NCBI GenBank assembly: GCA_016292295.1
Contig: JADNEJ010000156.1
Span: 1-13,978 of the forward strand
Source: Candidatus Thiodictyon intracellulare
GTDB taxonomy: Bacteria; Pseudomonadota; Gammaproteobacteria; Chromatiales; Chromatiaceae
DNA length: 13,978 nt
Direction of reading: 5' to 3'
The notes under the pieces were generated by a model. That model ran no database searches, was not told the DNA's origin, and was given only the letters and a program-made list of their open reading frames with translations. Position numbers and translations under genes: made by a program. Below are positions 1-12,146 of the stretch, piece by piece (position 1 is the first letter of the stretch; each line of letters starts with the position of its first letter).

Positions 1-57
1 CCAGATTCTGCGTAACAAATTGATTCGATAACTATGTGCAGTTGCTACATAATACCG
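1..57 (+). repeat. Right end of MITE-like element, copy A (cut by the window edge)
   Basis: The first 57 bases match the right ends of the two complete copies (4726-4927 and 7110-7311) almost base for base. The shared stretch begins CCAGATTC, passes a TAAC.AATTGATT core and ends GCTACATAATRC. The terminal GCTACATAATAC (44-55) is the inverse of the left terminal repeat GCATTATGTAGC of the other copies. Under the geometry of those copies the element ends at about 57, and the predicted target duplication would begin at 58 (CGCATAT). The left end lies outside the window, so the duplication cannot be confirmed. No protein is encoded here. Confidence 0.85.
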
Positions 58-3362: not shown

Positions 3363-3772
3363 TTAACTATATCAATAGAAATTTTTATGGATGAGGCACG
3401 CAGCGCTCGGCAGCGGTTGGTACCGCGAAAGGGAATTTTTGATCCCAGTCCGGCGAGCGGGCAAGAGCCAAGAAATTAGACAGGATTAACAGGATTTTGC
3501 AGGATTAACAAGATAAATCAGAGTGCGCCGAGCAGCGAACAAGATAAATCAGAGTGTGCCGAGCAGCGACCGTACATCCTGTAAATTCTGTCCATTTCCT
3601 GAACTCAGAGCGGTGGTCGAATGGTATCTGGATCTGCGCTTCGCAGCAGCGCGTCGAGGTCCCGCGAACTCTCCCAGGGAAACCCTGGGTCGGACCGTCT
3701 CTCGGTGTTAGACTGCACGCCTCGGCCCCATATCGGGGCGCGTAAGCCGCCCTACCAGCCGGACCTCGCCCC
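3363..3772. other. 410-bp repeat-rich gap between divergent DUF938 and lipA genes
   Basis: No gene is seen. The first ~110 bp are relatively AT-rich and would hold the DUF938 promoter. From about 3477 come several ACAGGATTAACAGG-type short repeats, a 31-bp tandem duplication (3507-3568), and an inverted degenerate partner (ATCCTGTAAATTCTGTCC, 3577-3594). Two hairpins lie nearer lipA: CCCAGGG-AAA-CCCTGGG (3673-3689) and GCCCC-ATATC-GGGGC (3725-3739). The lipA promoter is expected between these, but I cannot identify it with confidence. Confidence 0.7.
3507..3568. repeat. 31-bp tandem duplication in a palindromic ACAGGATTAAC repeat block
   Basis: Two head-to-tail 31-bp units occupy 3507-3537 and 3538-3568. 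Each starts AACAAGATAAATCAGAGTG and ends GCCGAGCAGCG. They differ at a single base (C to T at the second unit's 20th position). Upstream lies ACAGGATTAACAGGATTTTG (3479-3498); downstream lies its degenerate inverse (3577-3602). The duplication therefore sits in the loop of a larger imperfect palindrome. The small number of differences indicates a recent duplication. Confidence 0.9.
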
Positions 3773-4738
3773 ATGACCGATCCGATCCCGCTCACCGCCC
3801 CCTCACGCGCTACTCCGCAGACCCACCAGCGGGGCGCTGACAAGGTCGCGCGCATCCCGGTCAAGGTGGAGCCGCTGGCCGCGATGTTGCGCAAGCCGGA
3901 GTGGATTCGCACCAAGGCGCCGGTCGGGCCGGAGGTCGCGCGGATCAAACGGCTCCTGCGCGAGGCGCAACTAATCAGCATCTGCGAAGAGGCAAACTGC
4001 CCGAATCTCGGGGAGTGCTTCAATGAGGGTACCGCGACCTTCATGATTTTGGGGGATGTCTGTACCCGCCGCTGCCCCTTCTGCGACGTGGCCCACGGCC
4101 GACCAGGGCTGGTTGACCCGGCGGAACCAGAGCACCTGGCCCAGTCTATCGCCGCCATGGGGCTCAACTATGTGGTCATCACCTCGGTGGACCGCGATGA
4201 CCTGCGCGACGGCGGCGCCGGGCACTTCGCCGCCTGTCTGGAGGCAGTGCGGGCACGCTGTCCGCGGACCCGGCTAGAGATCCTGGTGCCGGACTTCCGC
4301 GGTCGGATGGCGCTCGCCCTGGACCAGTTTGCGGGCGCGGCGGTGCCGGATGTTTTCAATCACAACCTGGAGACGGTGCCCAGGCTCTATGCCCAGGCGC
4401 GACCCGGGGCAGACTTCCAGGGGTCCCTGCACCTGCTGGCGCAGTTTAAGGCACGCCATCCGGAGGTGCCCACCAAATCCGGGCTCATGCTCGGCCTAGG
4501 GGAGGAGGTCGAGGAGGTCCTGGCGGTCATGGCGGTGCTGCGCGCTCACGGCGCCGAGATGCTCACCCTGGGCCAATATCTGCAGCCGACCCGCGCCCAC
4601 CTGCCGGTGCGCCGCTACTGGGCACCAGCGCAGTTCGAGGCCCTGCGCCTAGCGGGGGAGTCGATGGGATTCTCCAACGTCGCGAGCGGGGCCATGGTCC
4701 GGTCTTCCTATCACGCCGATCGCCGCGGCATTATGTAG
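3773..4738 (+). CDS. lipA: Lipoyl synthase LipA (C-terminus replaced by element insertion)
   Basis: A 321-residue radical SAM enzyme. It inserts two sulfur atoms into octanoyl groups on lipoyl domains, giving the cofactor of pyruvate and 2-oxoglutarate dehydrogenases and of glycine cleavage. The auxiliary [4Fe-4S] cluster motif is [12 protein letters not shown] (Cys71, 76, 82). The radical SAM motif is CTRRCPFC (Cys97, 101, 104). The RSSY motif, whose Ser ligates the auxiliary cluster, is at 310-313. All catalytic features are present. The last residues, RGIM, and the TAG stop come from the MITE-like element starting near 4726. The tail that normally follows SYHAD is displaced to 4928 onward. 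The start at 3773 lacks a clear Shine-Dalgarno but gives normal length. No lipB is adjacent. The enzyme is likely functional, because only residues beyond RSSY-HAD changed. Confidence 0.97.
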
Positions 4739-4927
4739 CAAACGCACATGGCTATTTATTCAGTGGCTTGGCTACGACTTCCCGATTCTGAGCCAGCCCA
4801 GGCAGCCGGATTTCTCACCGAAACCTAGCAGATTCCGGCGCCCACCCGCCCGCATCGCACTGAGTTGCTGCCAGATTCTGCGTAACCAATTGATTAAATA
4901 AGTATGTGCAGCTGCTACATAATGCTT
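4726..4927 (+). mobile_element. MITE-like element, complete copy B, inserted in lipA
   Basis: A ~202-bp non-autonomous element with imperfect terminal inverted repeats about 40 bp long. The left end reads GCATTATGTAGCAAACGCAC. The inverse of the right end reads GCATTATGTAGCAGCTGCAC. Both continue into CAT...TATTTA.TCA. It is flanked by GATCGCC at 4718-4724 and 4928-4934, a 7-bp target duplication (8 bp with one mismatch if one more base is counted). The copy at 7110-7311 has the same length by the same rule. The element encodes no transposase; the conserved middle holds a GGCGCCCACCCGCCCGCATC block. It supplies the lipA stop codon. Boundaries are good to about one base. The transposase family that moves it is not identified. 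Confidence 0.9.
4895..4923 (+). promoter_or_regulatory. Possible outward promoter at right end of element copy B, towards aroK
   Basis: The terminal repeat contains CATAAT (4918-4923), five of six matches to a sigma-70 -10 box. It lies 17 bp downstream of TAAATA (4895-4900), a poor -35 (three of six). Transcription would start near 4930, about 117 bp before the aroK ATG. It matters because the insertion separates aroK from any lipA-linked transcript. The evidence is weak and sequence-only. Confidence 0.25.
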
Positions 4928-5044
4928 GATCGCCAGGCCCATGGGCTCGACGCGCGGTACCCGGGAGCGGCCGAAGGACCCCAAATCGACCGCGATATGG
5001 CGTTTAAGCCTTGCCCATCCGGTCACAATCTGGCATACCTGTAG
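4928..5044 (+). pseudogene. lipA: Displaced 3' end of lipA
   Basis: Joining codon GAT at 4718 directly to the right target-duplication copy (4928) restores an uninterrupted lipA frame: SYHAD-RQAHGLDAR. This resembles the common LipA C-terminus SYHADLQAKGMEVK of E. coli. The frame stays open to a TAG at 5042-5044, two bases before the aroK ATG, which would give about 353 residues. The later half of this tail loses typical third-position GC, so the ancestral stop may have been earlier. The segment is no longer translated as part of lipA. Confidence 0.7.
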
Positions 5045-5046
5045 AG

Positions 5047-5571
5047 ATGATACGCGCGCAGAACATTTTCCTCGTGGGCCCCATGGGTGCCGGCAAGAGT
5101 ACCGTTGGCCGGCAACTTGCTGAATCTCTGTCTTTTACCTTCAAGGACAGCGACCACGAAATCCAGCGACGAACCGGCGTCGACATCGCTACTATCTTTG
5201 AATTCGAGGGTGAGGCAGGCTTTCGCGCCCGCGAGAGACAGGTTATCGAGGACTTGGTGGCGGAGGAGCGCATCGTGCTCGCCACCGGCGGTGGTGTAGT
5301 CCTCGACGCCGAGAACCGCCAGAACCTGGCGTCGCGCGGCGTGGTGGTCTACCTGCACTGCACCCCGGAGCAGCAGTTCAGCCGCACCTCCCGGGACCGC
5401 GGCCGACCGCTGCTCCAGACCGACGACCCGCTGCAGAGCCTGCGTGACCTGATGGACGAGCGCGATCCCCTGTATCGGCAGGTCGCTGACCTAGTGGTCT
5501 CCACCGAAAAGCGCGGCACCGCCTCGGTGGTCAAAGAGATCCGCCGTCGGCTCGAGTCGGAAGAGTCGTAG
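5047..5571 (+). CDS. aroK: Shikimate kinase
   Basis: A 174-residue P-loop kinase that phosphorylates shikimate at the 3-OH in the cytosol, the fifth step of the shikimate pathway. Visible are Walker A GPMGAGKS (residues 11-18), the shikimate-binding DSD (34-36), FR (59-60), ATGGGVV (79-85) and the lid segment SRDRGRPLL. The length matches AroK. The ATG at 5047 is chosen because the family begins a few residues before NIFLVGPMGAGKS. An in-frame ATG at 5011 would add 12 non-homologous residues from the old lipA tail. The Shine-Dalgarno is weak (AGAG). aroB follows after 88 bp in the usual aroK-aroB order. The common upstream neighbour in gammaproteobacteria, pilQ, is absent; lipA with an inserted element is there instead. 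Confidence 0.96.
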   Translation: MIRAQNIFLVGPMGAGKSTVGRQLAESLSFTFKDSDHEIQRRTGVDIATIFEFEGEAGFRARERQVIEDLVAEERIVLATGGGVVLDAENRQNLASRGVVVYLHCTPEQQFSRTSRDRGRPLLQTDDPLQSLRDLMDERDPLYRQVADLVVSTEKRGTASVVKEIRRRLESEES

Positions 5572-5637
5572 GGTGGACTAAGGCGCGCGGCATCACGGTT
5601 TAGTCCGTCCGCAACGCTCGCCCGCGCTGCATCCACC
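5571..5637. repeat. Palindromic repeat between aroK and aroB
   Basis: From the last base of the aroK stop, GGGTGGACTAA (5571-5581) can pair with TTAGTCCGTCC (5600-5610) as an 11-bp RNA stem with two G-U pairs. TCCACC (5632-5637) offers an alternative partner for GGTGGA (5572-5577). The GTAGGGTGGA start is typical of a dispersed palindrome class common in gammaproteobacteria. There is no T-tract, so it is not a standard terminator. It could modulate aroK-aroB transcript processing. Confidence 0.5.
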
Positions 5638-5659
5638 AACACCCTGGCGTAATCAGCCC

Positions 5660-6733
5660 ATGTCCACGACCCTGAACGTCGCGCTCGGCGCGCGCAGCTA
5701 TCCCATCTTCATCGGCAGCGGCCTCCTCGCGGACCCCGCCTGCTACCGGCCCTATGTCGCCGGCCGCCAGGTGATGATCGGCACCAGCGAGACGGTGGCC
5801 CCGCTGTACCTGGAGGCCGTGGCGGGGGCCTTGGACGGCCTGCGCGTCGAGACCCTAATCCTGCCGGACGGTGAGGTCTACAAGACCCAGGCTCAGCTTG
5901 AGCGCATCTACGATGCCCTGCTCGGAGCCTGCTTCAGCCGTGACTGCACCCTCGTCGCCTTGGGCGGCGGGGTCATCGGGGACATGGTCGGGTTCGCCGC
6001 CGCCTGCTACCAGCGCGGCGTAGCCTTCATCCAGGTCCCGACCACGCTGCTCGCCCAGGTGGATTCGTCGGTCGGCGGCAAGACCGGGATCAATCACCCG
6101 CTGGGCAAGAATATGATCGGGGCCTTCCATCAGCCCCGGGCCGTGATCGCCGACACCGTGACCCTGAATACCCTGCCGGACCGGGAACTCTCCGCCGGGC
6201 TCGCGGAGGTCATCAAATACGGCCTGATCCGCGACGGTGCCTTCTTCGATTGGCTCGACACCCATCTCGACGCCCTGCGCGCCCGCGAACCGGCGGCGCT
6301 GGCCGAGGCGATCCGCCGTTCCTGCGAGAACAAGGCGCAGGTGGTGACCGCTGATGAACTGGAGGCGGGCGAGCGCGCCCTGCTCAACCTGGGCCACACC
6401 TTCGGCCACGCCATTGAGACCGGCGCCGGCTACAGCAACTGGCTTCACGGCGAGGCGGTCGGGGTCGGCATGTGCATGGCCGCGGACCTGTCGGCGCGCC
6501 TGGGATGGCTCGGTCCCGCGGACCTGCGGCGCACCCGCGACCTGATCGAGCGCGCGGGTCTGCCGACCGCCCCGCCGCCCGAACTCTCCGCCGGGCGCCT
6601 CCTGGACCTGATGGCCGTGGACAAGAAGGTCCTGGACGGTCGCCTGCGCCTGGTCCTGCTGCGCGGGATCGGCGAGGCGGTGGTCACCGACCAGTTCGAC
6701 ACGGCGCTCCTGCAGGCGACCATGGGAGGCTGA
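5660..6733 (+). CDS. aroB: 3-dehydroquinate synthase
   Basis: A 357-residue NAD- and divalent-metal-dependent enzyme that converts DAHP to 3-dehydroquinate, the second step of the shikimate pathway. Clear family blocks are ILPDGE.YK (67-75), the NAD-binding [15 protein letters not shown] (101-115), [20 protein letters not shown] (126-145), GLAEVIKYG (180-188, metal ligand Glu183), [12 protein letters not shown] (242-253, His246 and His250) and [10 protein letters not shown] (261-270, His263). Length and order match E. coli AroB (362 residues). The ATG at 5660 gives the standard N-terminus; no clear Shine-Dalgarno is visible. It is probably co-transcribed with aroK through the palindromic repeat. 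No damX or other usual downstream partner follows. Confidence 0.97.
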
Positions 6734-6772
6734 GTCACGAAGATTTTTTGTCTGCAAATGAACGCAAATAGG

Positions 6773-6904
6773 ATGAAGAGTCTCAGGGTTCGCTATGTGG
6801 ACCGGGCGCCGCGTGCCGACGCGGTGGCCTTGTTCATCGTTCCGGCCGGCGGCCACCTGCTGGAGTCCAAGGCTTCAGCCTTGGTCATGGACATCCAAGG
6901 CTGA
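6773..6904 (+). CDS. Short hypothetical ORF or gene fragment ended by a palindrome
   Basis: A 43-residue frame, including VALFIVPAGGHLL, starts at ATG 6773 and stops inside the palindromic repeat at 6864-6915. The first ~32 codons show the strong third-position GC of real genes in this window, which suggests a remnant of a longer gene cut by the repeat. I do not recognise the product. The sequence preceding the ATG is itself a dispersed repeat, and no good Shine-Dalgarno is present. It may well be non-coding. Confidence 0.25.
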   Translation: MKSLRVRYVDRAPRADAVALFIVPAGGHLLESKASALVMDIQG

Positions 6905-6915
6905 AGCCTTGGACT
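6864..6915. repeat. Double palindrome, 21-bp stem with self-complementary arms
   Basis: GTCCAAGGCTTCAGCCTTGG (6865-6884) and its exact reverse complement (6895-6914) flank a 10-base loop. One further A-T pair extends the stem to 6864-6915. Each arm is itself a hairpin (CCAAGGCT-TC-AGCCTTGG), so the block can fold as one long stem or as two small ones. Its form is that of a REP-like dispersed repeat. It is not followed by a T-tract. Confidence 0.9.
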
Positions 6916-7014
6916 GCGGCCCGGATGCGCCGAGATGGTGCGGTGTGCACCCATTCGGCGCAGATTCCGGGTCCGCGCCGCCCCCCCGCTCGGTCCCCGT
7001 CCCGTCACGCGGCC

Positions 7015-7044
7015 ATGGCACACCGAATGCCTGCGCGTTATGAT
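7015..7044 (+). promoter_or_regulatory. Possible sigma-70 promoter upstream of element copy C
   Basis: ATGGCA (7015-7020), then 18 bp, then TATGAT (7039-7044; five of six -10 matches). It could be the ancestral gltBD promoter, now separated from gltB by the element at 7110-7311. The spacing is slightly long and the GC-rich context makes chance matches less common, but the evidence is weak. Confidence 0.2.
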
Positions 7045-7109
7045 CGCGGGTCCCGCGTCGTCGACCGTCCCGAAGAGCCGGCGACGCTAGAGCCCCGTTT
7101 CCAGTTTCC

Positions 7110-7311
7110 CGGCATTATGTAACAAACGCAAATGCCTATTTATTAAGTAAGTTGGATGCGACTTCTCGATTCTGAGCCAGCTCTGGCAACCGGATTTCTC
7201 ACCGAAATCTGACAGATCCTGGCGCCCACCCGCCCGCATCGCACTGAGTTGCCGCCAGATTCCGCGTAACCAATTGATTCGATAACCATGTGCAGTTGCT
7301 ACATAATGCCG
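7110..7311 (+). mobile_element. MITE-like element, complete copy C, upstream of gltB
   Basis: A second full-length copy, in the same orientation as copy B and clearly similar over its whole length. The left end is CGGCATTATGTAACAAACGC; the right end inverts to CGGCATTATGTAGCAACTGC. The flanks CAGTTTC (7102-7108) and CAGTTTT (7312-7318) match at six of seven bases, consistent with a target duplication at the same offsets as copy B. The element starts and ends CGG...CCG in this copy. It carries no transposase gene. It lies 175 bp upstream of the gltB start. Confidence 0.88.
7279..7307 (+). promoter_or_regulatory. Possible outward promoter in right end of element copy C, towards gltB
   Basis: TCGATA (7279-7284; four of six -35 matches) and CATAAT (7302-7307; five of six -10 matches) with an ideal 17-bp spacer. 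A start near 7314 would give a leader of about 173 bases before gltB, containing the stem structure at 7375-7454. If real, the mobile element supplies expression to gltBD. This is inference from sequence only. Confidence 0.35.
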
Positions 7312-7374
7312 CAGTTTTCTGACTGGTGACCGCTTGAGCGGCCGCCCGTTGGGGTCCGAAGACACCGGATTTCG

Positions 7375-7454
7375 GGGATTGTGTCGGCTGGCCCGGGTCA
7401 TGCGATCCCGGCCTTTGCCAGGTGGATGCGTGACGCCCCGCGCGACACAATCCC
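7375..7454 (+). promoter_or_regulatory. Potential structured 5' leader of gltB
   Basis: GGGATTGTGTCG (7375-7386) and CGACACAATCCC (7443-7454) are a perfect 12-bp inverted repeat. Nested inside are CTGGC (7388-7392) with GCCAG (7417-7421), and CCGGG (7393-7397) with CCCGG (7407-7411), giving a stacked inner arm with a 5-base bulge and a 9-base loop. A small GCG-TGA-CGC hairpin (7428-7436) follows. The fold ends 32 bases before the gltB ATG. It resembles a junction-type cis-regulatory RNA, but I recognise no known riboswitch class. High GC can produce some inner stems by chance. Confidence 0.35.
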
Positions 7455-7486
7455 AACCGTTACTCCAGGTACCTACGAGGTCAGCG

Positions 7487-12146
<4,660 letters not shown>

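Follow-up and report, generated by a model that had tools for sequence, protein, structure and literature searches.

What is the 202-bp sequence that recurs along a 13,978-nt stretch of the 'Candidatus Thiodictyon intracellulare' genome, where did it come from, and is it still moving? The stretch, hereafter the window, is the entire contig C17 of an assembly of 2.96 Mb in 673 contigs. It holds two complete copies of the unit (copies B and C) together with the right end of a third (copy A), all of which lie where the original prediction had placed them; copy A is truncated because base 1 of the window is also the end of the contig. The results below lead us to the view, which we hold at a probability of about 0.92, that the unit is a miniature inverted-repeat transposable element (MITE), that is, a non-autonomous derivative of a 1.66-1.67-kb insertion sequence (IS) of the IS1595 family, which spread and then decayed. 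The features concerned are the following.

4726..4927, + strand: complete MITE copy B, 202 bp, within the 3′ end of lipA; site empty in three relatives
4718..4725, + strand: left 8-bp target duplication of copy B, GATCGCCG
4928..4935, + strand: right 8-bp target duplication of copy B, GATCGCCA, 7/8 identical to the left one
4728..4769, + strand: left terminal inverted repeat arm of copy B, 42 nt, 76% complementary
4884..4925, + strand: right terminal inverted repeat arm of copy B
7110..7311, + strand: complete MITE copy C, 202 bp, between aroB and gltB; empty site in relatives
7102..7109, + strand: left 8-bp target duplication of copy C, CAGTTTCC
7312..7319, + strand: right 8-bp target duplication of copy C, CAGTTTTC, 7/8 identical to the left one
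7110..7139, + strand: left terminal inverted repeat arm of copy C, 30 nt, 80% complementary
7282..7311, + strand: right terminal inverted repeat arm of copy C
1..57, + strand: right end of copy A, truncated by the contig end, with CGCATATC at 58-65 as the expected duplication
3773..4738, + strand: lipA (lipoyl synthase) reading frame, whose final codons and stop (RGIM*) are now supplied by the target duplication and the MITE

The 202-bp unit and its insertion sites

The termini of the unit read CGGCATTATGTARCA...TGCTACATAATGCYK, its inverted arms are imperfect, as had been described, and no transposase gene lies inside, which bears out the gene-less, MITE-like nature first proposed for it. Chance open reading frames (ORFs) do overlap the unit in the window, and some indels between copies, as read by eye, are of a length other than three bases. 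A search for the left end of copy A gave as best candidate C155:5661, which carries seven of the eight letters of the expected duplication; about 53 bases into this candidate copy other DNA intervenes, and a comparison of synteny with the relatives was uninformative.

Target duplications are present, as anticipated, but their length is 8 bp and not the 7 bp originally read. Among 47 near-full copies in the genome, the 8-bp flanks agree with at most one mismatch in 26 copies (14 of them exactly) and with at most two mismatches in 31, whereas one mismatch or fewer at 8 bp is found in 0.15% of random flank pairs. A duplication of 7 bp was rejected on the same count (matching flanks in 3 of the 47 copies, against the 26 at 8 bp), and lengths of 5, 6, 9 and 10 bp gave 3, 2, 0 and 0 copies, respectively. 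The 31 duplications are AT-rich, with a mean GC content of 39% against 66% in the window, and show a symmetric tendency, A being favoured at positions 2 and 4, and T at positions 5 and 7.

Insertion is also marked by empty sites, the existence of which was confirmed: all five insertion sites examined are unoccupied in every Thiodictyon relative where the site was found. The lipA and aroB-gltB sites are empty in all three of the relatives fetched for them (G007, G005 and G003). At the lipA site a single GACCGCCA stands in G007 and G005, and GATCGCCA in G003, and the gene continues; in the window, by contrast, lipA ends ...ADRRGIM*, and the last 18 residues of the G007/G005 version are missing (read by eye). 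At the aroB-gltB site the letters of the left duplication are CAGTTTCC in G007 and G005 and CAGTTTCT in G003, where the first ~40 bases on the right side are unalignable. Outside the window, a copy on contig C66 is absent in seven of seven relatives and splits a 511-amino acid (aa) reading frame that is intact in G007, and for the product of which a Pfam search gave no match. The four of seven relatives that hold the region in which two further copies lie on C112 have neither of them, the locus being a RES-domain gene in G007. Four of the five insertion sites examined lie in reading frames.

These observations bear on the idea that the unit is a domesticated regulatory or structured RNA repeat kept by selection, of the REP/BIME type (repetitive extragenic palindrome/bacterial interspersed mosaic element). 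The uniform 202-bp length and the inverted ends would fit such a role, as would one of four folded pieces, at z = -2.1, and two promoter-like matches in positions 4600-7600 where 0.5 would be expected, one of which (7279-7307, 9/12) falls within the right end of copy C and is directed at gltB. Against this, insertion is marked by 8-bp duplications and empty sites, four of the five examined sites are in reading frames, and the copies decay with a GC-to-AT bias (see below). Moreover, the other three pieces fold no better than shuffled sequences (z of -0.3, -0.7 and -0.3), the window has no Rfam match at gathering scores, and no terminator-like site was found in 4600-7600. A structured RNA or terminator function was rejected on the folding, Rfam and terminator searches, and we consider selection for a regulatory role barely credible.

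Copy number and distribution

The three copies in 14 kb noted at first are real, but locally dense as they are, they belong to a family that is far larger genome-wide. The 15-bp terminus, with up to two mismatches, occurs at 144 sites in the genome (73 forward and 71 reverse), while a reversed control pattern gave no site in the same search. A sequence-only profile built from 31 copies, with which 150 of 843 first-look candidates were scored, returned at least 124 matches at E <= 0.001. Removal of 31 matches that were antisense doubles of listed copies left 93, corresponding to 87 loci, of which 57 scored as near complete (at least 175 positions), 16 as partial near contig ends and 14 as partial inside contigs. 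One of the 57, on C265, is made up of two overlapping right halves on opposite strands and was not counted as near complete, so that 56 near-complete copies are left; and two pieces on C124 are a single copy split by an IS, which brings the count to at least 86 distinct loci. The MITE explains some of the breaks in the draft assembly.

When the profile was run against 210 genomes of the bacterial family, under stricter filters and with 11 candidates scored per genome, the element was found in this genome and in the Chromatiaceae genus g24 only. Within g24, full-length MITEs occur in G030 and G144, while G143 and G145 have partial matches, located at IS-like ends. The G030 MITE (201 bp) is 76% identical to a window copy over its full length and has an exact 8-bp duplication, GGTCATTC; that of G144 (~194 bp) is 78% identical to the consensus across 192 aligned columns. 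Both genomes differ from the present one in that a single full-length copy was found in each, against dozens here. No MITE copy was found by profile in the seven other Thiodictyon genomes at the same sampling, and blastn against these seven gave only a 28-bp IS end in G005. The genome studied here is 2.96 Mb, versus 6.0-7.8 Mb in the seven congeners. The MITE burst is clear, and it took place in a lineage of which the sampled congeners showed no copy and have genomes no less than twice this size; it connects a named family of transposons with the breakage of genes as the genome shrank.

Several copies are associated with other repeats. By eye, units of a second family that resembles a MITE, ~155 bp long and ending in CTGAAGTTTCC...GGAAACTTCAG, were noticed (C24:10204-10568, L079; C90:577-950, L159; and L174); on C24 and C90 it sits inside copies of the first family, and on C24 it is bordered by an apparent 8-bp repeat, GTAGCAAA (by eye). 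The MITE copies on C117, C170 and C278 are themselves embedded in another repeated sequence, CGATCATAAGC...CCAGAATAT, and those on C117 and C170 appear to be inserted at the same target point in it (both by eye). A further TTTGGCCATTTTAGGCGACCCC-like repeat is common to C155:5720-5848, where it interrupts the MITE, and to C219 to the right of position 4748.

The putative IS1595-family parent

A full-length IS with nearly the same ends, such as the original prediction had proposed to look for, was found in the Thiodictyon relative G005 (uncultured Thiodictyon sp. Loclat_bin-12166). It is 1,667 bp long, has ends CGCCATTATGTAGCARCCGCACATG, differs from the MITE by one base in the first 15 of the terminus, and is flanked by an exact 8-bp duplication, GAATTTCG. 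Its 342-aa transposase matches PF12762 (E 7.5e-43), PF12760 and NF033547, all above cut-offs, and by these domain matches is of the DDE ISXO2/IS1595 type with an N-terminal zinc ribbon. The family of the terminal sequence, left unnamed at first, is IS1595. Similar ISs of 1,661-1,665 bp are present in G030 (one) and G143 (two, one of them 1,665 bp with an exact 8-bp duplication), and the transposase also matched 289 plasmid records, all less than 60% identical. The ISs of these three genomes share with the MITE a near-identical terminus of ~25 bp, at both ends, and a collinear subterminal stretch; they differ in carrying a transposase gene and, in G005, a 143-aa passenger ORF (L082:180-611, G005 C175) that gave no match in Pfam and NCBIfam searches, the MITE having neither.

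Four IS copies of this kind were found in the present genome, and all are broken. In the C185 copy the transposase frame is almost complete, being broken by one stop at residue 37, and no transposase-side end is recognisable; that of C311 has five stops; that of C35 is in two pieces in different frames with stops; and that of C124 is in pieces, one of which has three stops. The C124 IS lies inside a MITE copy, bordered by the duplication GAATAAAT/AAATAAAT, which means that an IS of this kind moved here after that MITE was in place. A relic of the passenger ORF, 114 aa, was also observed in this copy (L075:1311-1655). Taking six ISs together, the duplication is exact in G005 and in G143 C51, 7/8 in the C35 and C124 copies of the present genome, and missing from G143 C57 and G030. 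A terminus at 4.94 Mb in G030 had been considered as the mark of a nearby complete parent, and was dropped when only one end was found in the stretch examined.

The relationship may extend into the interior of the unit. MITE positions 61-81 have a match in the IS at the same offset, positions 61-81 (twice in G143 and once in G030; 1-2 of 200 shuffles). Across positions 35-81, the G030 MITE matches the G143 IS (1 of 200 shuffles). Furthermore, each of the five ISs compared has at positions 1071-1097 a match to MITE positions 118-137, in the same orientation (0-1 of 200 shuffles). This suggests that the MITE likely arose by internal deletion of an IS.

A number of findings weigh against this derivation or against parts of it. 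The 1071-1097 match is not shared by the G030 MITE; the interior matches are short and come from about 40 comparisons, uncorrected, with ISs that are related to one another; and the right arm past the ~25-bp terminus mostly scores no better than shuffles. The left interior also scores above most shuffles when set against the passenger-side ends of G143 and G030 (8 and 3 of 500), so its side-specificity is not clean, and it matches the three transposase-side ends of the present genome poorly (83, 123 and 464 of 500). The direct parent may therefore not be an IS now present here, and may instead have been a g24-like IS. Moreover, the genome yielded no intact IS of this kind, and we therefore infer an active helper from the relatives and the wrecked copies. 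Finally, 21 of the 47 near-full copies lack an 8-bp duplication at one mismatch or fewer, which is partly due to decay or nested insertions.

Past the ~25-bp end the similarity is modest, and on the right arm it is mostly lacking, which could also mean that the unit is a MITE of a different transposase family, its end shared with the IS1595 element by convergence, and 8-bp duplications are known in several IS families. Such a convergence appears very improbable, in that it would have to account for a near-identical terminus of this length at both ends of ISs in three other genomes, for the same duplication length wherever duplications are preserved, and for the collinear interior matches.

Derivation from an IS1595-family element thus being preferred, we propose the following course of events. 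The MITE carries the ~25-bp terminal inverted repeats of the IS and probably ~55 bp of the transposase-side subterminal region. Its anatomy suggests that the ends were recognised in trans by an IS1595 transposase, which would have inserted the unit at AT-rich 8-bp targets and duplicated them. In this lineage the family came to occupy at least 80 places, and those five that were examined were filled after the split from the sampled Thiodictyon relatives. Since then the transposase genes have decayed, and the MITE copies have drifted under GC-to-AT-biased mutation.

Decay, mutation bias and neighbouring repeats

The high local density had been taken as a sign of recent or ongoing activity, and this was not borne out. 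In 46 of the 47 near-full copies (one was dropped by the length filter for both divergence and mutation spectrum), the mean divergence is 7.0% from the consensus (1.5-10.4%) and 12.1% between pairs, the closest pair differing by 3.5%. The mean nearest-neighbour distance is 7.8%, and only four of the 46 copies have a neighbour at less than 5%. Six columns divide the copies into subfamilies. As judged from pairwise distances only, this is the pattern that a near star-like burst would give.

A young family in which transposition continues would nevertheless be consistent with the absence of the five examined insertions from the sampled relatives, with the nearly complete C185 transposase frame, and with some pieces at contig ends. 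Five such pieces of 109-163 bp (C10, C316, C326, C364 and C222) diverge from the consensus by 3.1-4.5%, and a further seven, of 54-73 bp, by 0-2%, although shared letters are expected at short ends where the assembly breaks. Younger copies may be hidden in assembly gaps. However, once the six subfamily columns are discounted, the 18 pieces that lie no more than 60 bases from a contig end have a pooled divergence of 5.2%, with an uneven range of up to 17.6%, and full copies are equally at 5.2%. Together with the distances between copies and the breakage of all four ISs, C185 lacking its transposase-side end in addition, this makes present activity decidedly unlikely, and the family seems to have lost its mobility.

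The decay runs mostly in one direction, from GC to AT. GC-to-AT changes affect 9.2% of G/C sites and AT-to-GC changes 2.9% of A/T sites, a ratio of 3.2, or 3.9 on near-fixed columns, from which an equilibrium GC content of 20-24% follows. C-to-T changes in the copies are no more frequent at CpG. Many independent and apparently unselected copies of this kind offer a direct way of measuring mutation bias in an uncultured endosymbiont, and are useful as a near-neutral record of it.

A wider scenario is possible, if on balance doubtful: one IS1595 MITE burst early in endosymbiont life would have helped to inactivate genes and died with its IS, leaving 80-odd neutral copies that record the mutation spectrum and a relative date of the symbiosis. 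If true, the spectrum could be read from copies that started from nearly the same 202 letters, with GC-to-AT changes about 3-4 times as frequent per site as AT-to-GC changes, and the relative date of the symbiosis could likewise be read from them. 'Ca. T. intracellulare' is described as the purple endosymbiont of the ciliate Pseudoblepharisma, with a genome reported at 2.9 Mb and extensive pseudogenisation, against 7.74 Mb for 'Ca. T. syntrophicum' (PMC8195481).

Comparable elements have been described. A MITE of ISHwa6 (IS1595 family) in Haloquadratum walsbyi is 165 bp long and present in 7 copies (PMC3852290, Table 4). It resembles the present one in family, in its 25-bp inverted repeats and in its 8-bp direct repeats, a likeness drawn from the description and not from sequence, and it differs in its archaeal host and lower copy number. 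The Cardinium endosymbiont of Oedothorax gibbosus has a lineage-specific IS982-derived MITE and many pseudogenised ISs (PMC9769881). Here the likeness is the lineage-specific spread of an IS-derived unit in a host-restricted endosymbiont, whereas its IS982 parent has intact copies and the element is thought to be actively maintained, in contrast to the IS1595 type and the four broken parental copies found here. A limited literature search found no paper joining Thiodictyon with 'miniature inverted', and the main text of the 2021 and 2026 symbiont papers has no 'transpos', 'mobile' or 'insertion sequence'. IS1595 MITEs and MITE bursts in endosymbionts are thus already known, and the present family is a new example; less usual is its combination of copy number, a wrecked parent and copies that serve as a mutation record.

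The window also contains repeats of other kinds. Downstream of aroB, at 6859-6920, lies a strong 26-nt inverted repeat (92%, with a 10-nt gap) of the CCAAGGCTTCAGCCTTGG type, and GATTAACAGGATT-type repeats are found at 3480-3545, upstream of lipA. At 2536-2681, perfect 23-nt inverted arms, CTCACGCCAAGGCGCCAAGCTCG, stand 100 nt apart. The latter represent a third dispersed repeat, which occurs elsewhere in the genome and in the Thiodictyon relative G001, often as inverted pairs (L024, L059, L096, L114 and L232).

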